Origin: a virus
DNA: 25,781 nucleotides
Strand: one strand, 5' to 3'
Virus record (IMG/VR): IMGVR_UViG_3300042503_001500
Location: 1 to 25,781 of that record
Positions 11,826 to 24,044 of the stretch are shown piece by piece. The position numbers were made by a program, and so were the translations under genes. The stretch's first letter is position 1. Every line of letters starts with the position of its first letter. The notes under the pieces are model-generated. The model worked only from the letters and a program-made list of their open reading frames with translations. It did not search any database and had not been told where the DNA came from.

Positions 11826-12980
11826 TTATCCATCGTAGCTTCTTCTTGAACCAGTTTCAGCATCTTGCCTACGCTGAGTTCCTACAACTGCATTTAATCT
11901 AGATTTTAATTTAGCTGCCTTCTTTTGTTCAGATGTTTTACCATCCCATTCAGTTGGAGTGTTATCTTTCCAATCATCATGCTTGCCAATATTCGCTTCA
12001 CGACTTCTTGGCAGTTTAGTTGTTTTTGGGGATTGTGGCCTTTCTGGATATGGTGCAGTAAATCCTTCAACAATTACATCAATCCAATCTTCACTCATGT
12101 TAACCATGATGTTTTCTGCTGATTCTACAGTATCAGCATATCCTTCTTCTAGAAGGTGATCTAGAACTACATCATATACATCTACATCTTCACCTAGTCT
12201 TGATGCAAGTCTACCAGCACCAGAAGCTACCTTCCTAGCAACTTTGCCGAGGAAACCTTTACCAGCTTTCTTTGCAGCAGAGCCTGCTGATTGCATCTTA
12301 GCTTGAGCAGCATCACCAGCAGTTTTAGTACCAGTTACTGCTTTTTGACCTGCAGATTGAACCGCACCCTTTACCTTTTCTACTCCACGCTGGAGTTTAT
12401 TGGCAGCTCTTGATGCAAGGTGGCCAACAACCTGTGAGCGAATGCCTCTACGAACAGAAGGATCCTTTGAAGCCTGCTTCATACCAATAGAGGTTCTATT
12501 GAGTGGCTTACCCTTCTTGCTTGATACTAGGCCATGCTTAGCAGCATAATCACCTGCAGCGGTGTCTACAGCCTTTCTAGCTCTAGCTACAGCCTTGCCA
12601 GGAGCATCCTTAACTGCCTGAACTTGGCGCTGGCGGGCAGCAGATACAACAGCTTGCCTTCTAGCTTGTTGACGCATTGCAGTACCCTGACCAGTTGTTA
12701 CTGGTGCAGAACGCTTATCAGTACTTAGTTTAGTATATCCACCACGACCTTTAGTTACAGTAGCTTCGGAGAAAATCTCATCTAAAGCTTCTTCAATATC
12801 TAATAATTCATATCCCTCTTCAAGCATAGCTTCGATTGTTTCTTCAACAATCTCTTCAATCTCACCATCATAAAGATAATTAATATCCTCAAGAAGTTCT
12901 ACTTCTTCAGATAATGTTTCTCTTACTTCATCGTTATAAACGGCAAAGTATGATTCGTAAAGTCTTTGAGTTTCTGTCAT
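11826..12980 (-). CDS. Late virion-type protein with histone-H1-like basic centre (384 aa)
   Basis: Three zones. Residues 1-75 are very acidic (LSEEVELLEDINYL, IEEIVEETIEAMLEEGYE). Residues 80-270 are Lys/Arg/Ala/Gly-rich and repetitive, like histone H1 tails (RQQARRQAVVSAARQRQ, KAVARARKAVDTAAGDY, KKAGKGFLGKVARKVA). Residues 270-310 hold VYDVVLDHLLEEGYADTVES and IMVNMSEDWIDVIVEG, a pattern I recall from other cyanophage structural proteins. The C-terminus is hydrophilic and disordered-looking. An exact late promoter 32 nt upstream and a strong terminator make it a single late gene. Likely a head-interior or core protein that contacts DNA; the function is inferred. Confidence 0.8.
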   Translation of the reverse strand: MTETQRLYESYFAVYNDEVRETLSEEVELLEDINYLYDGEIEEIVEETIEAMLEEGYELLDIEEALDEIFSEATVTKGRGGYTKLSTDKRSAPVTTGQGTAMRQQARRQAVVSAARQRQVQAVKDAPGKAVARARKAVDTAAGDYAAKHGLVSSKKGKPLNRTSIGMKQASKDPSVRRGIRSQVVGHLASRAANKLQRGVEKVKGAVQSAGQKAVTGTKTAGDAAQAKMQSAGSAAKKAGKGFLGKVARKVASGAGRLASRLGEDVDVYDVVLDHLLEEGYADTVESAENIMVNMSEDWIDVIVEGFTAPYPERPQSPKTTKLPRSREANIGKHDDWKDNTPTEWDGKTSEQKKAAKLKSRLNAVVGTQRRQDAETGSRRSYDG

Positions 12981-18667: not shown

Positions 18668-19276
18668 TCAGGTACCAAATGTTAGTGTTGCAGTTCTGGA
18701 AATAACTTCTTCAGTACCACCAGCAGATGTGACCTTCACTCTATACTTGTAACCAGTAACTGCTGAAGTAGCACCAGTTAGAGTTAGAGTATGAGTTGTA
18801 GAGCCAGTGTAGATTCCAGTGTTGGTAAGATTTGTCCAACGAGTTCCGGTTGTGGTTTGAACCTGCCACTGATAAACAAGAGTTCCTGGAGTTCCAGTTG
18901 TAGTGGTCTGACCGTTAACTGTAAATGTTGCTCCACCGGATGATGTAGTAGCATTCTGTGGATATGCAACGTTGATTGTTACTGCTGATGCAACGTCTGC
19001 AGCAATTGTGTCATCAGTCTGAGTTTCGTTTGCATTGGTATCTGGATTGCCAAGTGCAACTAGCTTCTCTGCTTTGTGACGAGTATTTCCTGCAGCATCA
19101 GTATAAGTGAAGTAGGACCACCAACCAGGACCATCAATACCACGGGTACGGTTCTCGTTTAGCCTTGCCTCAGTTTCATCAACGAAAACAATTGTTTTTG
19201 CTTGTGCTGAAGCAGCAATAGTTCTTTCAACTTTAGTCTTATTTGCGTTAGAATCAGTTCTTCCGTATAGAGACAT
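18668..19276 (-). CDS. Virion protein with Ig-like C-terminal domain (202 aa)
   Basis: N-terminal part MSLYGRTDSNANKTKVERTI and GIDGPGWWSYFTYTDAAGNT is typical of cyanophage structural proteins. Residues 95-202 are Thr/Ser-rich beta sequence with the Ig-fold pattern (LVYQWQVQTTTGTRWTNLTN, HTLTLTGATSAVTGYKYRVK), like displayed Ig domains on phage heads and tails (Hoc-type). An exact late promoter lies 32 nt upstream, right after a terminator. Probably decorates the virion and binds carbohydrates or host surfaces; the role is inferred. Confidence 0.85.
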   Translation of the reverse strand: MSLYGRTDSNANKTKVERTIAASAQAKTIVFVDETEARLNENRTRGIDGPGWWSYFTYTDAAGNTRHKAEKLVALGNPDTNANETQTDDTIAADVASAVTINVAYPQNATTSSGGATFTVNGQTTTTGTPGTLVYQWQVQTTTGTRWTNLTNTGIYTGSTTHTLTLTGATSAVTGYKYRVKVTSAGGTEEVISRTATLTFGT

Positions 19277-19685: not shown

Positions 19686-22334
19686 TTAGTCGAATCTTGA
19701 AGACATCATATCTTTTGCTCTTTGAGCAGCAGCACGACGTGCAGCTACTTTTTGTGCTGGAGACTTAGGACCGCCATACTCACCAGCTGCAGGTGGCTTT
19801 TTACCAGGAGTTTTCTTTTGTCCTCTTGGTTGAACACCCGCTCTTGAAGCTCCCATTGATTTGGAAACTAGTTTAAATGCAGCACTTGGTTCAGGTGGTC
19901 TCGGAGTTCCCTTGTCTTCTCTTCTTCTTTCATCAATTACTTCAACTTCTTCATTATATTTTTTCCATGCGGTTGCATATGCAATGCCTTTTTCTTTTTT
20001 AGTCAGACCACCTTTAGAATAACCCTTTTTAATATGCTTCACCATTCTTTCATATTTTTTGCCTGGAGGTGCCTTCTCATCAATGCTTTCAACTTCTTCA
20101 CGCCTCATATCAACCTGAGGATTAATGATTACACCATCCTTTCTTTTACCTTTCACATCTGGAGTGTTATCTGTTCTGTTAGTTTGAGTTAGACTAACAA
20201 ATTTTCCAGTTGCATCATCATCACTAGACTTTTTTTCGGTTAACTGCCTCCAGTCTGCAAAAGTAAATCTTTCGATGTCAAATGAATTTTGCAATTTTTC
20301 TTCAATGATTTCACGAGCTGATGGACCAGACTCTTCTACCATTAGCATTGCTTGCTCAATGAAATAATCAAAATGCTCTTGATCGAGTGATTCAAAGATT
20401 TCTTGAACCTCATCATAGTTAAATGCAATTTCAGATTCGATGAAATAGTGAGTTAGAAGTTCTTTCTCTTCCTTTCTCATCTTTTTAACAAAAGTTCCAA
20501 CTGCTCTACCTGCGGTTGCAGCAGCAGACTTGCCAGCTTTTCTAGCCTTTACTGCTTCTCCTGCAGCCGCTCCAGCAGCACCCGCAGCCTTGACTGCAGT
20601 TCTACCTGCACTTTGAGCTGCTCTACCAGCTGCAACAGTTGCCTTTCTTCTTGCTTTAGTTGCAGCTGCGGATTGTTCTGCTTCTTTACCTTTTGCCCTA
20701 ACAGCGTCATAAGTTGCTTTAACTTCTGCAGCACGTCTTGCTCCTACTTGTCTTGCTGTGTTTACTGATTGTCTAACAGATGCAATATCCTTTTCTGCTC
20801 TAGCTTTAAGGGCACCTAGGATACCACCTTTTGCTTTTTCTTTAGTTTGTGTTGGGGTTGATTTAGTTGCTGGCTGAGATTTCTTAGCATTGGCAACTTT
20901 AGACTGACTCTTGAGAGCAGCAGCCATTCCAGATGATTTTGATGATTCGGCATCTCTTGCAGCTTTTCTTGATTTATGCTCAGCAGAAGCACGGATTGCT
21001 GCAGATTTAGCACCACCTTTTAGTGAGCCAATTGACTTGCCAGACTTGGACATTCCAGAGCCACGTACTTTAGTACCACCAGCTCCACGTCTCCATTCAA
21101 CAAGAAACTCTTCAGATGAAATCTCATCAACAAAATCACAGAAATCATCAATACCCATATCTTCGATTAGAAGATCAATACCATACTCATTGAGTCCCTC
21201 ATTCATAAAATATGTTGTTGCAATTTCTGCAACATCTTCCATTTTCACACACTTATCTTTACCGTTTTCGGTACCAGCATACTTATAACCTTTCCAGCAA
21301 GCTTTTCCATCAGCACCTTGCTCTTTGCCTTCTTTGTTCTTTGCTTCAACAGCATACTCTTCAGGGGTGTAATGTACGCTGTGACGATATCCACCAATTT
21401 CTTGATCTAATCTATCTGCTCTAGATTTAGCTCTTTTTTTATTTTTATATGGTTTGCCAATTTTAACTGGCTCTCCATCACTTGGACCATGTTTTGCTGG
21501 GCCATAAATTTGATATGGCATTTCATTCAATTCATACTCTTCATTTCTAGGATCTCTGGTGCCTCTGAGTGGCTCTAAACCAGAACGACGGCGTGCTTTG
21601 TTTCCCGCCCCCTGATCACCATACCCAGCATATCTTGGGCCTTTACCGCCAGTGGATTTCTTCTCATACCCAGGTGTTCCAGGACCATCACCACGAACTG
21701 CAATATTATGAGCATTTGCTCTATCTCTTGTAGTTACTCCATATGTCTGATACTGCTTACCCGCCAGTTTTCTTTGACGGGGACCGGGACGCATTGCCTC
21801 ATATACAGTTTCATCTTCTTGAAGTTGTCTATTTCTCCAAAGCTCAGCAACATAATCTACTGCTTCCTTTCTGGTCTTTCTAACATCATCACCTGGCTCG
21901 TATGGAGTATCATCACCATCAGAATTCCACCAAGGATTCTTACCCTTAAACTTACGACCTTTTAGTTTAGGTCTTTTTTTCTCTTGAACTAATTCAGTTT
22001 CTTCCTTGCGAACTCCACTCTTAGCATTTAATTTTGCTTGGATTCTTTGCTTCATTTCTGGCATTGAAGCCACATTATAAAGAGCTAGGGTCGGAGCACT
22101 AAATGTTTTTCCATTGGTGTATACATTAACACCCATGTAATCTCTAACTTTCTTGTCTTCTAGAAGAGTTAGAGCATACTCAAGAGTTTGATCAATTAAA
22201 TTTTCTCTTAGATAATCTTCTTGAGAGTTCACATCACCCGGAAAGTATGCAGAAGCAGACTCAACCATCTTTGTTGCTTTGTACATCATGTCCGGTGTAA
22301 GAGACATGAATTGAGATACAATAGATAAATCCAT
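19686..22334 (-). CDS. Large late virion-type protein with histone-H1-like region (882 aa)
   Basis: Mosaic protein. Residues 1-110: helical domain (MDLSIVSQFMSLTPDMMYKA). 110-330: hydrophilic and basic. 331-365: AKNKEGKEQGADGKACWKGY...KCVKM, a motif I recall from other cyanophage proteins. 366-412: acidic helices. 415-622: Ala/Lys/Arg-rich repetitive region (KARRKATVAAGRAAQSAGRT) like histone H1. 623-690: acidic (ELLTHYFIESEIAFNYDEVQ). About 745-795: KKYERMVKHIKKGYSKGGLT and KKEKGIAYATAWKKY, another recurrent cyanophage motif. Basic C-terminus. Two late boxes lie just upstream. Probably a head-interior or scaffold-like protein; it shares its acidic-basic-acidic plan with the gene at 11826. 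Confidence 0.82.
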   Translation of the reverse strand: MDLSIVSQFMSLTPDMMYKATKMVESASAYFPGDVNSQEDYLRENLIDQTLEYALTLLEDKKVRDYMGVNVYTNGKTFSAPTLALYNVASMPEMKQRIQAKLNAKSGVRKEETELVQEKKRPKLKGRKFKGKNPWWNSDGDDTPYEPGDDVRKTRKEAVDYVAELWRNRQLQEDETVYEAMRPGPRQRKLAGKQYQTYGVTTRDRANAHNIAVRGDGPGTPGYEKKSTGGKGPRYAGYGDQGAGNKARRRSGLEPLRGTRDPRNEEYELNEMPYQIYGPAKHGPSDGEPVKIGKPYKNKKRAKSRADRLDQEIGGYRHSVHYTPEEYAVEAKNKEGKEQGADGKACWKGYKYAGTENGKDKCVKMEDVAEIATTYFMNEGLNEYGIDLLIEDMGIDDFCDFVDEISSEEFLVEWRRGAGGTKVRGSGMSKSGKSIGSLKGGAKSAAIRASAEHKSRKAARDAESSKSSGMAAALKSQSKVANAKKSQPATKSTPTQTKEKAKGGILGALKARAEKDIASVRQSVNTARQVGARRAAEVKATYDAVRAKGKEAEQSAAATKARRKATVAAGRAAQSAGRTAVKAAGAAGAAAGEAVKARKAGKSAAATAGRAVGTFVKKMRKEEKELLTHYFIESEIAFNYDEVQEIFESLDQEHFDYFIEQAMLMVEESGPSAREIIEEKLQNSFDIERFTFADWRQLTEKKSSDDDATGKFVSLTQTNRTDNTPDVKGKRKDGVIINPQVDMRREEVESIDEKAPPGKKYERMVKHIKKGYSKGGLTKKEKGIAYATAWKKYNEEVEVIDERRREDKGTPRPPEPSAAFKLVSKSMGASRAGVQPRGQKKTPGKKPPAAGEYGGPKSPAQKVAARRAAAQRAKDMMSSRFD

Positions 22335-22356
22335 ATTCTTTCTTTGAAATGAGTTC

Positions 22357-22374
22357 TATTTATTATTATTTATC
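22357..22374 (-). promoter_or_regulatory. Tandem late boxes for the 882-aa gene
   Basis: AATAAATA (22357-22364) and GATAAATA (22367-22374) in tandem, 23 and 33 nt before the ATG at 22334; the second overlaps the stop region of the upstream gene. Confidence 0.65.
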
Positions 22375-23547
22375 TTTTCGTCTACCTTTAGTAAATGACT
22401 TAACTGGTTCGGTAGGATGCATTCGTTGCAGATATTCACGATAATCATCCGTACCAATTTCCAATGGTCCTGGGTGATAACTTAAATCTTTGACCCAGGT
22501 TCTATGAATTTTCTTTTGTTCGTCCACAAAGATAACATAATTAGAACCTCTGGTAACAATTTTTCCAGAGATACCAGTAATAGAATCAATTACTGTTTCA
22601 CCTAAGTTGTAAATATTTCCTTGATAATATTGCTCTCGGAGATTTTCAATATCTAATGATGGAGATATTTTCCATAAATCTTCTTTGAGACTCATAGACT
22701 TACGAACTTGTGAATAGATTGCACGGCACTCTTTTTTGCTAACATTGCCAGGAAGTCCTTGTTTGAAGGTTTCGTAATCATTTTCAAGTGCTGCTTTACG
22801 CATCATTGAGCTAGTAATTCCTTCAGTTTTGTCCGTATCTGGATCAGACATTCCAGCACCAACTACTTCTACTCCATAAAAGTCATACACAGTTCCATTG
22901 TATTTCTGTGCAATTTTTTCATACTTTTGAACATTCTCATCTCCACACATAATTACTACATGATGGTAACCCTCATCGTGCAATGATGTCAAAATATCAT
23001 AAATGTTATCTCCATTTTCTGGATCATTTACAATACTTTCAGCATGATCCGGGAATATATGTTGGAGAATGTTATACTTTGATTTGAAATCTAATGGATT
23101 CTGCTTACTATCAGAAGTCCTACTTGGATAAATTCTATATTCAGCTTCCAGCTCTTCTGCTTGTTCTTGAACTGCATTTATAAGATTTTCATGCCCAAGT
23201 GAAGGAGGATTAAATCTGCCAAAAGTAATAACCACTGCAGGACCATCTCCAGGTTGAATTTCTTCTGGAGGTTGATCTGCAGTGGTTTGATTTGTGGCAG
23301 GCGGCTGAGGAACATTCTGAACATCAGCTTGTGAAGATGGACCCATAAGTGGGACACCATCTTTTAATTTTTTCTTATCTGACTTAGATATAGAAACTAA
23401 TTTTTGTCCGCCACCTTCACTTTTAGCGACAATTTCTCCTTTGGCATTTGAGTAATAGCCTTTACCCAGATGGGTAAGACCTTTTTTCTCTGCCTCTTTG
23501 CCCGCAGGAGTTCTGGCTTCTGTTATAAATTGTCTAAAAGTTTTCAT
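22366..23547 (-). CDS. Nucleotidyltransferase with capsid-targeting-like N-terminus (393 aa)
   Basis: The ATG at 23547 is chosen over a TTG 9 nt upstream. Residues 105-265 form a HIGH-type nucleotidyltransferase (NMN adenylyl-/cytidylyltransferase superfamily): G110-RFNPPSLG-H119 for the nucleotide, a VVIMCGDENVQKYE strand, and I244-TSSMMR-250, the ISSTxxR-like motif. Phage relatives are often called cytidylyltransferases. The N-terminus MKTFRQFITEARTPAGKE closely resembles the T4 capsid-targeting sequence of internal proteins (MKTYQEFIAEA), including an I-x-E|A protease-type site. Residues 20-100 are a hydrophilic linker. A C-terminal small beta domain (YNLGETVIDSITGISGKIVT) looks KOW/SH3-like. 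It may be packaged in the head and injected. The substrate is unknown. Confidence 0.85.
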   Translation of the reverse strand: MKTFRQFITEARTPAGKEAEKKGLTHLGKGYYSNAKGEIVAKSEGGGQKLVSISKSDKKKLKDGVPLMGPSSQADVQNVPQPPATNQTTADQPPEEIQPGDGPAVVITFGRFNPPSLGHENLINAVQEQAEELEAEYRIYPSRTSDSKQNPLDFKSKYNILQHIFPDHAESIVNDPENGDNIYDILTSLHDEGYHHVVIMCGDENVQKYEKIAQKYNGTVYDFYGVEVVGAGMSDPDTDKTEGITSSMMRKAALENDYETFKQGLPGNVSKKECRAIYSQVRKSMSLKEDLWKISPSLDIENLREQYYQGNIYNLGETVIDSITGISGKIVTRGSNYVIFVDEQKKIHRTWVKDLSYHPGPLEIGTDDYREYLQRMHPTEPVKSFTKGRRKDK

Positions 23548-23582
23548 CAAAAACAAAAGTTCTACATCTATTATTTAGGTAA

Positions 23583-24044
23583 CTACATAGGTTTGATAAG
23601 CGTTTTTGCCCTCAATATGTTAGTAGCTACTACAATTGAATTGTAAACATTAGTAGAATTGTCTTGTAAAAATTTTAGAATTGGATCTTTGTTTTGATTG
23701 TAATGCAGTTTACTTTTCTTTCTCTTCATCAAATAAAAATTTATTAATGAAGAAACTAGTTCTTTTTGATTAGCTAAATTTTGTTTTGTCTTGGGATAAA
23801 ATCTTACATAATCTACTAGCAAAGTGTAAACAAAAAAATCATGATTTTTTGCAATAACATCTAGGAAGTCTGAGCACAATGGCAAGAATCTTTTTGTAGC
23901 ATTGATATAATTATCAAATCTAGGTTTGTCTGCTGGTTGAACAAATATAGACATTGAATCCAGTAAAGCTAAGCATTCGTTCACACCTTTACTACCATTT
24001 GCAAACAGACTAGAATGTATAGTGCTCAGACTTACTCCACTCAT
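23583..24044 (-). CDS. Phage hypothetical protein (153 aa)
   Basis: Helical protein: MSGVSLSTIHSSLFANGSKG, LALLDSMSIFVQPADKPRFD, FLPLCSDFLDVIAKNHDFFV and a basic C-terminus (FYLMKRKKSKLHYNQNKDPI). The ATG overlaps the mazG stop by 1 nt (TGATG). No signal or membrane segment and no recognised family. Being coupled to mazG and the helicase, it is probably an early or middle gene. Confidence 0.75.
   Translation of the reverse strand: MSGVSLSTIHSSLFANGSKGVNECLALLDSMSIFVQPADKPRFDNYINATKRFLPLCSDFLDVIAKNHDFFVYTLLVDYVRFYPKTKQNLANQKELVSSLINFYLMKRKKSKLHYNQNKDPILKFLQDNSTNVYNSIVVATNILRAKTLIKPM

Follow-up and report, generated by a model that had tools for sequence, protein, structure and literature searches.

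The window, by which we mean the whole 25,781-nucleotide stretch of viral DNA analysed here (IMG/VR record IMGVR_UViG_3300042503_001500), encodes a 393-residue NMNAT-like protein whose N-terminus carries a capsid-targeting sequence of the type found on internal head proteins of phage T4. We consider it very likely that this tag directs packaging of the protein and, leaving the substrate aside, likely that an NMNAT-fold enzyme is packaged in this way for delivery. The gene occupies the coordinates given in the initial annotation, on the minus strand (Table 1).

Table 1. Positions in the window of the tagged gene, the parts of its product and the upstream promoter motif.
Feature	Position	Strand	Remarks
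Whole gene, 393 aa + stop	22366..23547	minus	ATG at 23547, stop at 22366-22368
Capsid-targeting sequence, residues 1-11 (MKTFRQFITEA)	23515..23547	minus	Prohead-protease cut predicted between E10 and A11
Module 2, residues 12-62, small alpha/beta domain	23362..23514	minus	Common to unrelated tagged proteins; profile search, predicted model
Variable linker, residues 63-103	23239..23361	minus	Disordered about 72-97, pLDDT 38-47
NMNAT-like nucleotidyltransferase domain, residues 104-284	22696..23238	minus	GRFNPPSLGH, ITSSMMR
C-terminal small beta-barrel-like domain, residues 292-360	22468..22674	minus	Predicted model
T4-type late-promoter motif CTAAATA	23572..23578	minus	31 nt upstream of ATG

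The N-terminus of the protein reads MKTFRQFITEARTPAGKEAEKKG, and its first eleven residues are identical at 7 of 11 positions (1, 2, 3, 7, 8, 10 and 11) to MKTYQEFIAEA, with which two internal-protein genes of T4 begin (NC_000866). The resemblance to T4 internal proteins proposed in the initial annotation, including the I-x-E/A site, is thereby borne out, and at position 4 the Tyr of T4 is conservatively replaced by Phe. According to a review of T4 head assembly, the targeting sequence comprises ten residues, of which 4 and 7 serve targeting and 8 and 10 processing (T4 IPIII), with (L/I)-x-E as the sequence behind which the prohead protease cleaves (PMC9026906). The window protein matches every one of these targeting and cleavage positions with F4, F7, I8, E10 and A11. 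I8-T9-E10/A11 conforms to the cleavage rule, and prohead-protease cleavage after E10 is predicted with good confidence. In the structural model, residues 4-10 of the tag form a helix, with low confidence at residues 1-3.

The resemblance of the tag to T4 is not due to chance. When a strict pattern (^MK.[FYW]..F[ILVM].E) was applied to each start codon in all six frames, each phage genome gave one to three matches (at most three in each of seven phage genomes besides T4), and the reversed genomes gave none in 8 of 8 cases. Residue shuffling behind 976 MK dipeptides predicted 0.07 matches, compared with 15 observed among 1676 MK dipeptides, the two sets differing slightly because the shuffle requires 42 downstream residues. 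The three matching places in T4 are the two internal-protein genes and a 54-aa open reading frame at 18966-19130 (minus strand; NC_000866), which starts with MKTFKEFIKED and suits the targeting motif except at position 11. The tag is kept in all 73 distinct IMG/VR orthologs from two scans (36-100% identity), a set biased toward the tagged lineage by its ranking on whole-query similarity; 61 fit the strict pattern and 12 a relaxed or one-residue shifted form. An alignment of 33 orthologs reveals M1, F7 and E10 as invariant and K2 and A11 as almost invariant, with a freely varying linker behind them, while Phe occupies position 8 in 8 of the 73 orthologs and falls outside the T4 (L/I)xE rule. 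In a tblastn search, the first 69 residues alone retrieved T4-like internal head proteins with 70.6% identity over 17 aa, but at E-values of 3-9.

The initial annotation joined the tag by a linker to a HIGH-type nucleotidyltransferase; the nucleotidyltransferase domain is indeed present, but module 2, rather than a linker alone, lies directly behind the tag, and the motif itself is SxGH, a variant of HxGH. PF01467 matches residues 107-251 above its cut-off, with GRFNPPSLGH at 110-119 and ITSSMMR at 244-250, so that the protein combines the PF01467 fold with the (T/H/S)xGH and SxxxR-type motifs expected of NMN/NaMN adenylyltransferases. In the AlphaFold2 model the catalytic core is predicted with confidence, and among its fold matches in the PDB, NadD-type NaMN adenylyltransferases rank first (E about 1e-5), closely followed by PPAT; a single-sequence search of PDB chains produced a chance match only. 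The fold and nucleotide-binding motifs are thus shared with bacterial NadD/NMNAT (PF01467, TIGR00482), whereas the window family departs from these in its SxGH/TxGH variant and in additional domains at both termini, and the window protein has only 15-18% identity to solved NadD. Among the curated models, the window protein itself matched only the general TIGR00125, below its cut-off, and the NadD and NadR matches stem from its orthologs. 'Cytidyltransferase' in the databases is a superfamily label.

NMNAT is our best guess for the identity of the enzyme from sequence and model, and NMN or NaMN as its substrate is a tentative assignment with close to, though short of, an even chance. It is quite possible, if on balance doubtful, that the protein is packaged by its tag but uses another acceptor, such as phosphopantetheine, a sugar or lipid phosphate, RNA or protein, an alternative that concerns the substrate alone and is compatible with packaging. 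The low identity to NadD would fit such an acceptor, as would the TM-scores of PPAT structures (0.69-0.71, above about 0.6 for NadD), the CoaD model that also matches 6 of 33 orthologs, and the fusion of the S-PM2 domain to DUF6267, a bearer of a ligase-like KWDGAP motif. An NMNAT is favoured by the NCBIfam matches to NadD (18/33 orthologs) and NadR (12/33), and by the best structural E-values, which belong to NadD/NMNAT. NARP1 (Namat) was considered as an NAD route and rejected, because Namat is Nampt-like, not NMNAT-like, and PADLOC assigned the window protein to no defence family. The C-terminal domain, which S-CAM3 and S-PM2 encode as a small gene of its own, was likewise rejected as a further shared cargo module, being confined to NMNAT orthologs in eight genomes.

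The late-promoter motif upstream of the gene suggests late expression. CTAAATA is kept at -31/-32 in close relatives (ATAAATA in two) while the flanks diverge, and within the window CTAAATA/TATAAATA occurs 11 times on the minus (coding) strand and 0 times on the plus strand, against first-order Markov expectations of 4.3 and 2.5, respectively. Many of the motifs in the window lie 28-44 nt before gene starts, including those of the NMNAT-like, head-protein and 384-aa genes, and AATAAATA lies 30 nt before the 882-aa gene, while gp41, mazG, nrdA, nrdB and gp61 of the window are without the motif. A prohead protease of the gp21 type (PF03420) is encoded by 5/5 close relatives, from which its presence is known, the window being a 25.8-kb fragment without the prohead-protease region. 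We note that the Lys/Arg-rich 882-aa and 384-aa proteins (19686-22334 and 11826-12980, both on the minus strand), which have several (L/I)xE sites and late-promoter motifs, are possible internal head proteins.

Relatives of the enzyme have been reported in purified virions of cyanophages, as S-SCSM1 ORF91, S-CREM2 ORF154 and S-SZBM1_140 (PMC9602691, PMC10665884, PMC9146016), and these papers cite a further family member in S-CBWM1 virions. These virion NMNAT/cytidylyltransferases (phrog_395) share with the window protein both the family and a tag-like N-terminus, in 3/3 cases (MKSFLQFLKEA in S-SCSM1, MKNFSSFLTEA in S-CREM2 and MRFRQFIIEA in S-SZBM1), and differ from it in S-CREM2 and S-SZBM1 by being without module 2; the linker is also short or missing in these two orthologs. 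The tag pattern matches four proteins of S-CREM2, gp154 (NMNAT), gp14 (kinase), gp6 (SAM lyase, PF23780) and gp13, with a 78-aa protein among them. All four belong to the virion-detected proteins, which account for 52 of the 219 CDS of this phage (p=0.003). When three phages are taken together, virion detection extends to 6 of 9 tagged proteins versus 127 of 719 (p=0.0014; 4/6 and p=0.010 for the strict pattern alone), the tagged proteins S-SCSM1 gp030, S-SZBM1_191 and S-SZBM1_192 being undetected in the virion proteomes.

In the S-SCSM1 and S-CREM2 studies, the authors already put forward delivery to the host and themselves warned of carry-over, and the mass-spectrometry signal for the enzyme is modest, with 2-3 peptides in S-SZBM1 and S-CREM2. 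The protein could accordingly be an ordinary cytoplasmic auxiliary metabolic enzyme, its virion detection reflecting carry-over and its motif being conserved for another reason, and some lineages do retain the enzyme without a tag. In S-CAM3 gp079 (187 aa) and a protein of jumbo phage K64-1 (178 aa), nothing precedes the catalytic domain, and S-PM2 has its NMNAT-like domain fused, untagged, to the C-terminus of a DUF6267 protein. Thus, the tag is an addition to the enzyme that is unnecessary for its fold, and packaging is not universal in the NMNAT family; phages with untagged enzymes (the S-PM2/S-CAM3 lineage and the jumbo phage) are natural negative controls. We nevertheless regard carry-over as improbable, since the same motif is present on T4 internal proteins and, in S-CREM2, on non-tail enzymes found in the virion, since the abundant replication enzymes that carry-over would predict are missing from the S-CREM2 and S-SZBM1 lists (S-SCSM1 has one, RegA), and since the late-promoter motif speaks against an ordinary cytoplasmic enzyme. 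That the tag brings the protein to the prohead chiefly to serve in assembly or in the core, rather than to be delivered to the host, is very unlikely, because the catalytic motifs conserved across orthologs would be needless for a purely structural function, even though T4 core proteins are likewise processed in the prohead and the neighbouring gene (18668-19276) belongs to a head-protein family whose S-SZBM1 ortholog is in the virion.

Packaging through a T4-type capsid-targeting sequence, as the initial annotation predicted, is therefore supported by position-specific conservation, the T4 control, the protease of relatives, the late-promoter motif and the virion proteomics of orthologs. The head location, cleavage and injection of the enzyme, as well as its substrate, are inferred. 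We suggest that a late-expressed NMNAT-like adenylyltransferase would enter the prohead via its N-terminal T4-type sequence, the first ten residues binding to the scaffold core while the head is being assembled. Cleavage by the prohead protease after I-T-E10 would then leave a mature protein whose first residue is A11 and whose N-terminal part is module 2, which might act as a further element for retention or docking. The mature enzyme would remain in the head with the DNA, enter the cyanobacterium at infection and act immediately, most likely by adenylylating NMN or NaMN and so raising or restoring NAD(P).

With T4 IPI-IPIII the window protein has in common the 10-residue N-terminal motif ending in (I/L)xE/A, the prohead protease (here in relatives) and the late-promoter motif; those proteins, in contrast, are small and not described as NMNAT-type enzymes, whereas here the tag, and then module 2, precede the rest of a 393-aa enzyme. 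T4 Alt, a virion ADP-ribosyltransferase, is alike in being a head-carried enzyme that is gp21-processed and acts on entry (PMC9026906), properties that are predicted for the window protein, but is unrelated to it as an enzyme. Cyanomyoviruses are without alt (PMC2984593).

Module 2 is a stretch of 45-50 residues with the pattern GLxxxGxGxYxDxxGxxVAKxxxGxL. A profile was derived from five NMNATs after deletion of their tags. Among 13,477 ORFs obtained by six-frame translation of the window and eight phage genomes, it recovered the NMNATs, both kinase copies of S-CREM2 and of S-N03, and the HNH-type proteins of these two phages at E-values of 1e-9 to 1e-26, with no other match below E 0.9. With a kinase copy alone as the query, 251 phage records were retrieved, NMNATs making up most among the matches listed. 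A tag-like start together with module 2 is also present on ACG-2014f gp182, the S-CRM01 kinase, S-CRM01 g128 and, outside the cyanophages, an unrelated 175-aa protein of Xanthomonas phage X1 (WEM34387; L175 2468-2995). The kinase and NMNAT genes of S-CRM01 form one contiguous group with two small genes. The module is modelled with a pLDDT of about 87 within the full protein and only moderately in isolation (mean pLDDT 71), the isolated model finding no fold match in the PDB with Foldseek, and Pfam has no family for it in the NMNAT, kinase or HNH-type protein. Module 2 may have a docking or retention role.

Searches for other proteins with the same N-terminus, a check that the initial annotation had proposed for cyanophages, returned among others a kinase, a SAM lyase, a DUF6267 protein and small proteins. 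In S-CREM2, the virion kinase gp14 and SAM lyase gp6 carry the tag at their start, and the virion 'Cas9' gp12 has a tag-like stretch, LRFASFMAEA, near its start; module 2 is present in both gp14 and gp12, and all three virion-detected proteins differ from the window protein in having unrelated catalytic domains. In gp12 (OR473000 7704-10313, minus strand) and S-N03 QIN96773, both with a tag-like stretch and module 2, an HNH-like stretch is recognizable by eye, while Pfam returned no nuclease family for either; gp12-type 'Cas9' proteins are possible injected nucleases. When IMG/VR was scanned for the tag by its DNA pattern, without recourse to NMNAT homology, at least 80 ORFs were retrieved, at least 51 of them NMNATs. 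Many genes thus use the tag, with NMNAT the commonest carrier among the matches listed. The other carriers listed include a DUF6267 protein (in L200) and small proteins that are often basic; TAAATA lies 27-32 nt upstream in many cases.

On balance, we favour the existence of a cargo code in T4-like cyanophages, in which the tag, often with a docking module of ~45 residues, would be swapped among unrelated enzymes that form a host-takeover or counter-defence set injected before gene expression. This reading draws on the tag plus module on NMNAT, kinase and HNH-type nuclease, and the tag alone on SAM lyase and DUF6267. T4 targeting, and the virion presence and possible injection of the NMNAT family, are already known and published, so that for this family the targeting explanation alone is new; no mention of a targeting sequence on cyanophage virion NMNATs was found in the open-access papers searched, relative to which the T4-type tag on these enzymes, and the tag and module common to unrelated cyanophage virion enzymes, appear to be new. 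For the NMNATs, kinases, SAM hydrolase and Cas9-like protein of virions, where real cargo has to be told from carry-over, the tag offers a mechanism and a prediction per protein, namely that a tagged protein is inside the head and has lost ten residues. It also allows cargo to be read from the genomes of very abundant ocean phages, and indicates NAD metabolism as a target at the first moment of infection.

The DUF6267 protein of L200 (6418-7623, minus strand) has a capsid-targeting N-terminus of its own, MKSFQTFLNEA, and its gene is preceded by a late-promoter motif at 30 nt. Full-length DUF6267 proteins with a ligase-like KWDGAP-type motif are located at the same place in Syn9, S-SZBM1 and P-TIM40, and the 153-aa protein encoded at 23583-24044 (minus strand) of the window, which matches only DUF6267 residues 205-325 (of 376 aa) just under the family cut-off, looks like a remnant. 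In a close relative (L043 1953-3196, minus strand, equivalent to G001 21953-23196), two adjacent proteins are tagged, with the N-termini MKTFAQFLEEA and MKTYSEFLLES.
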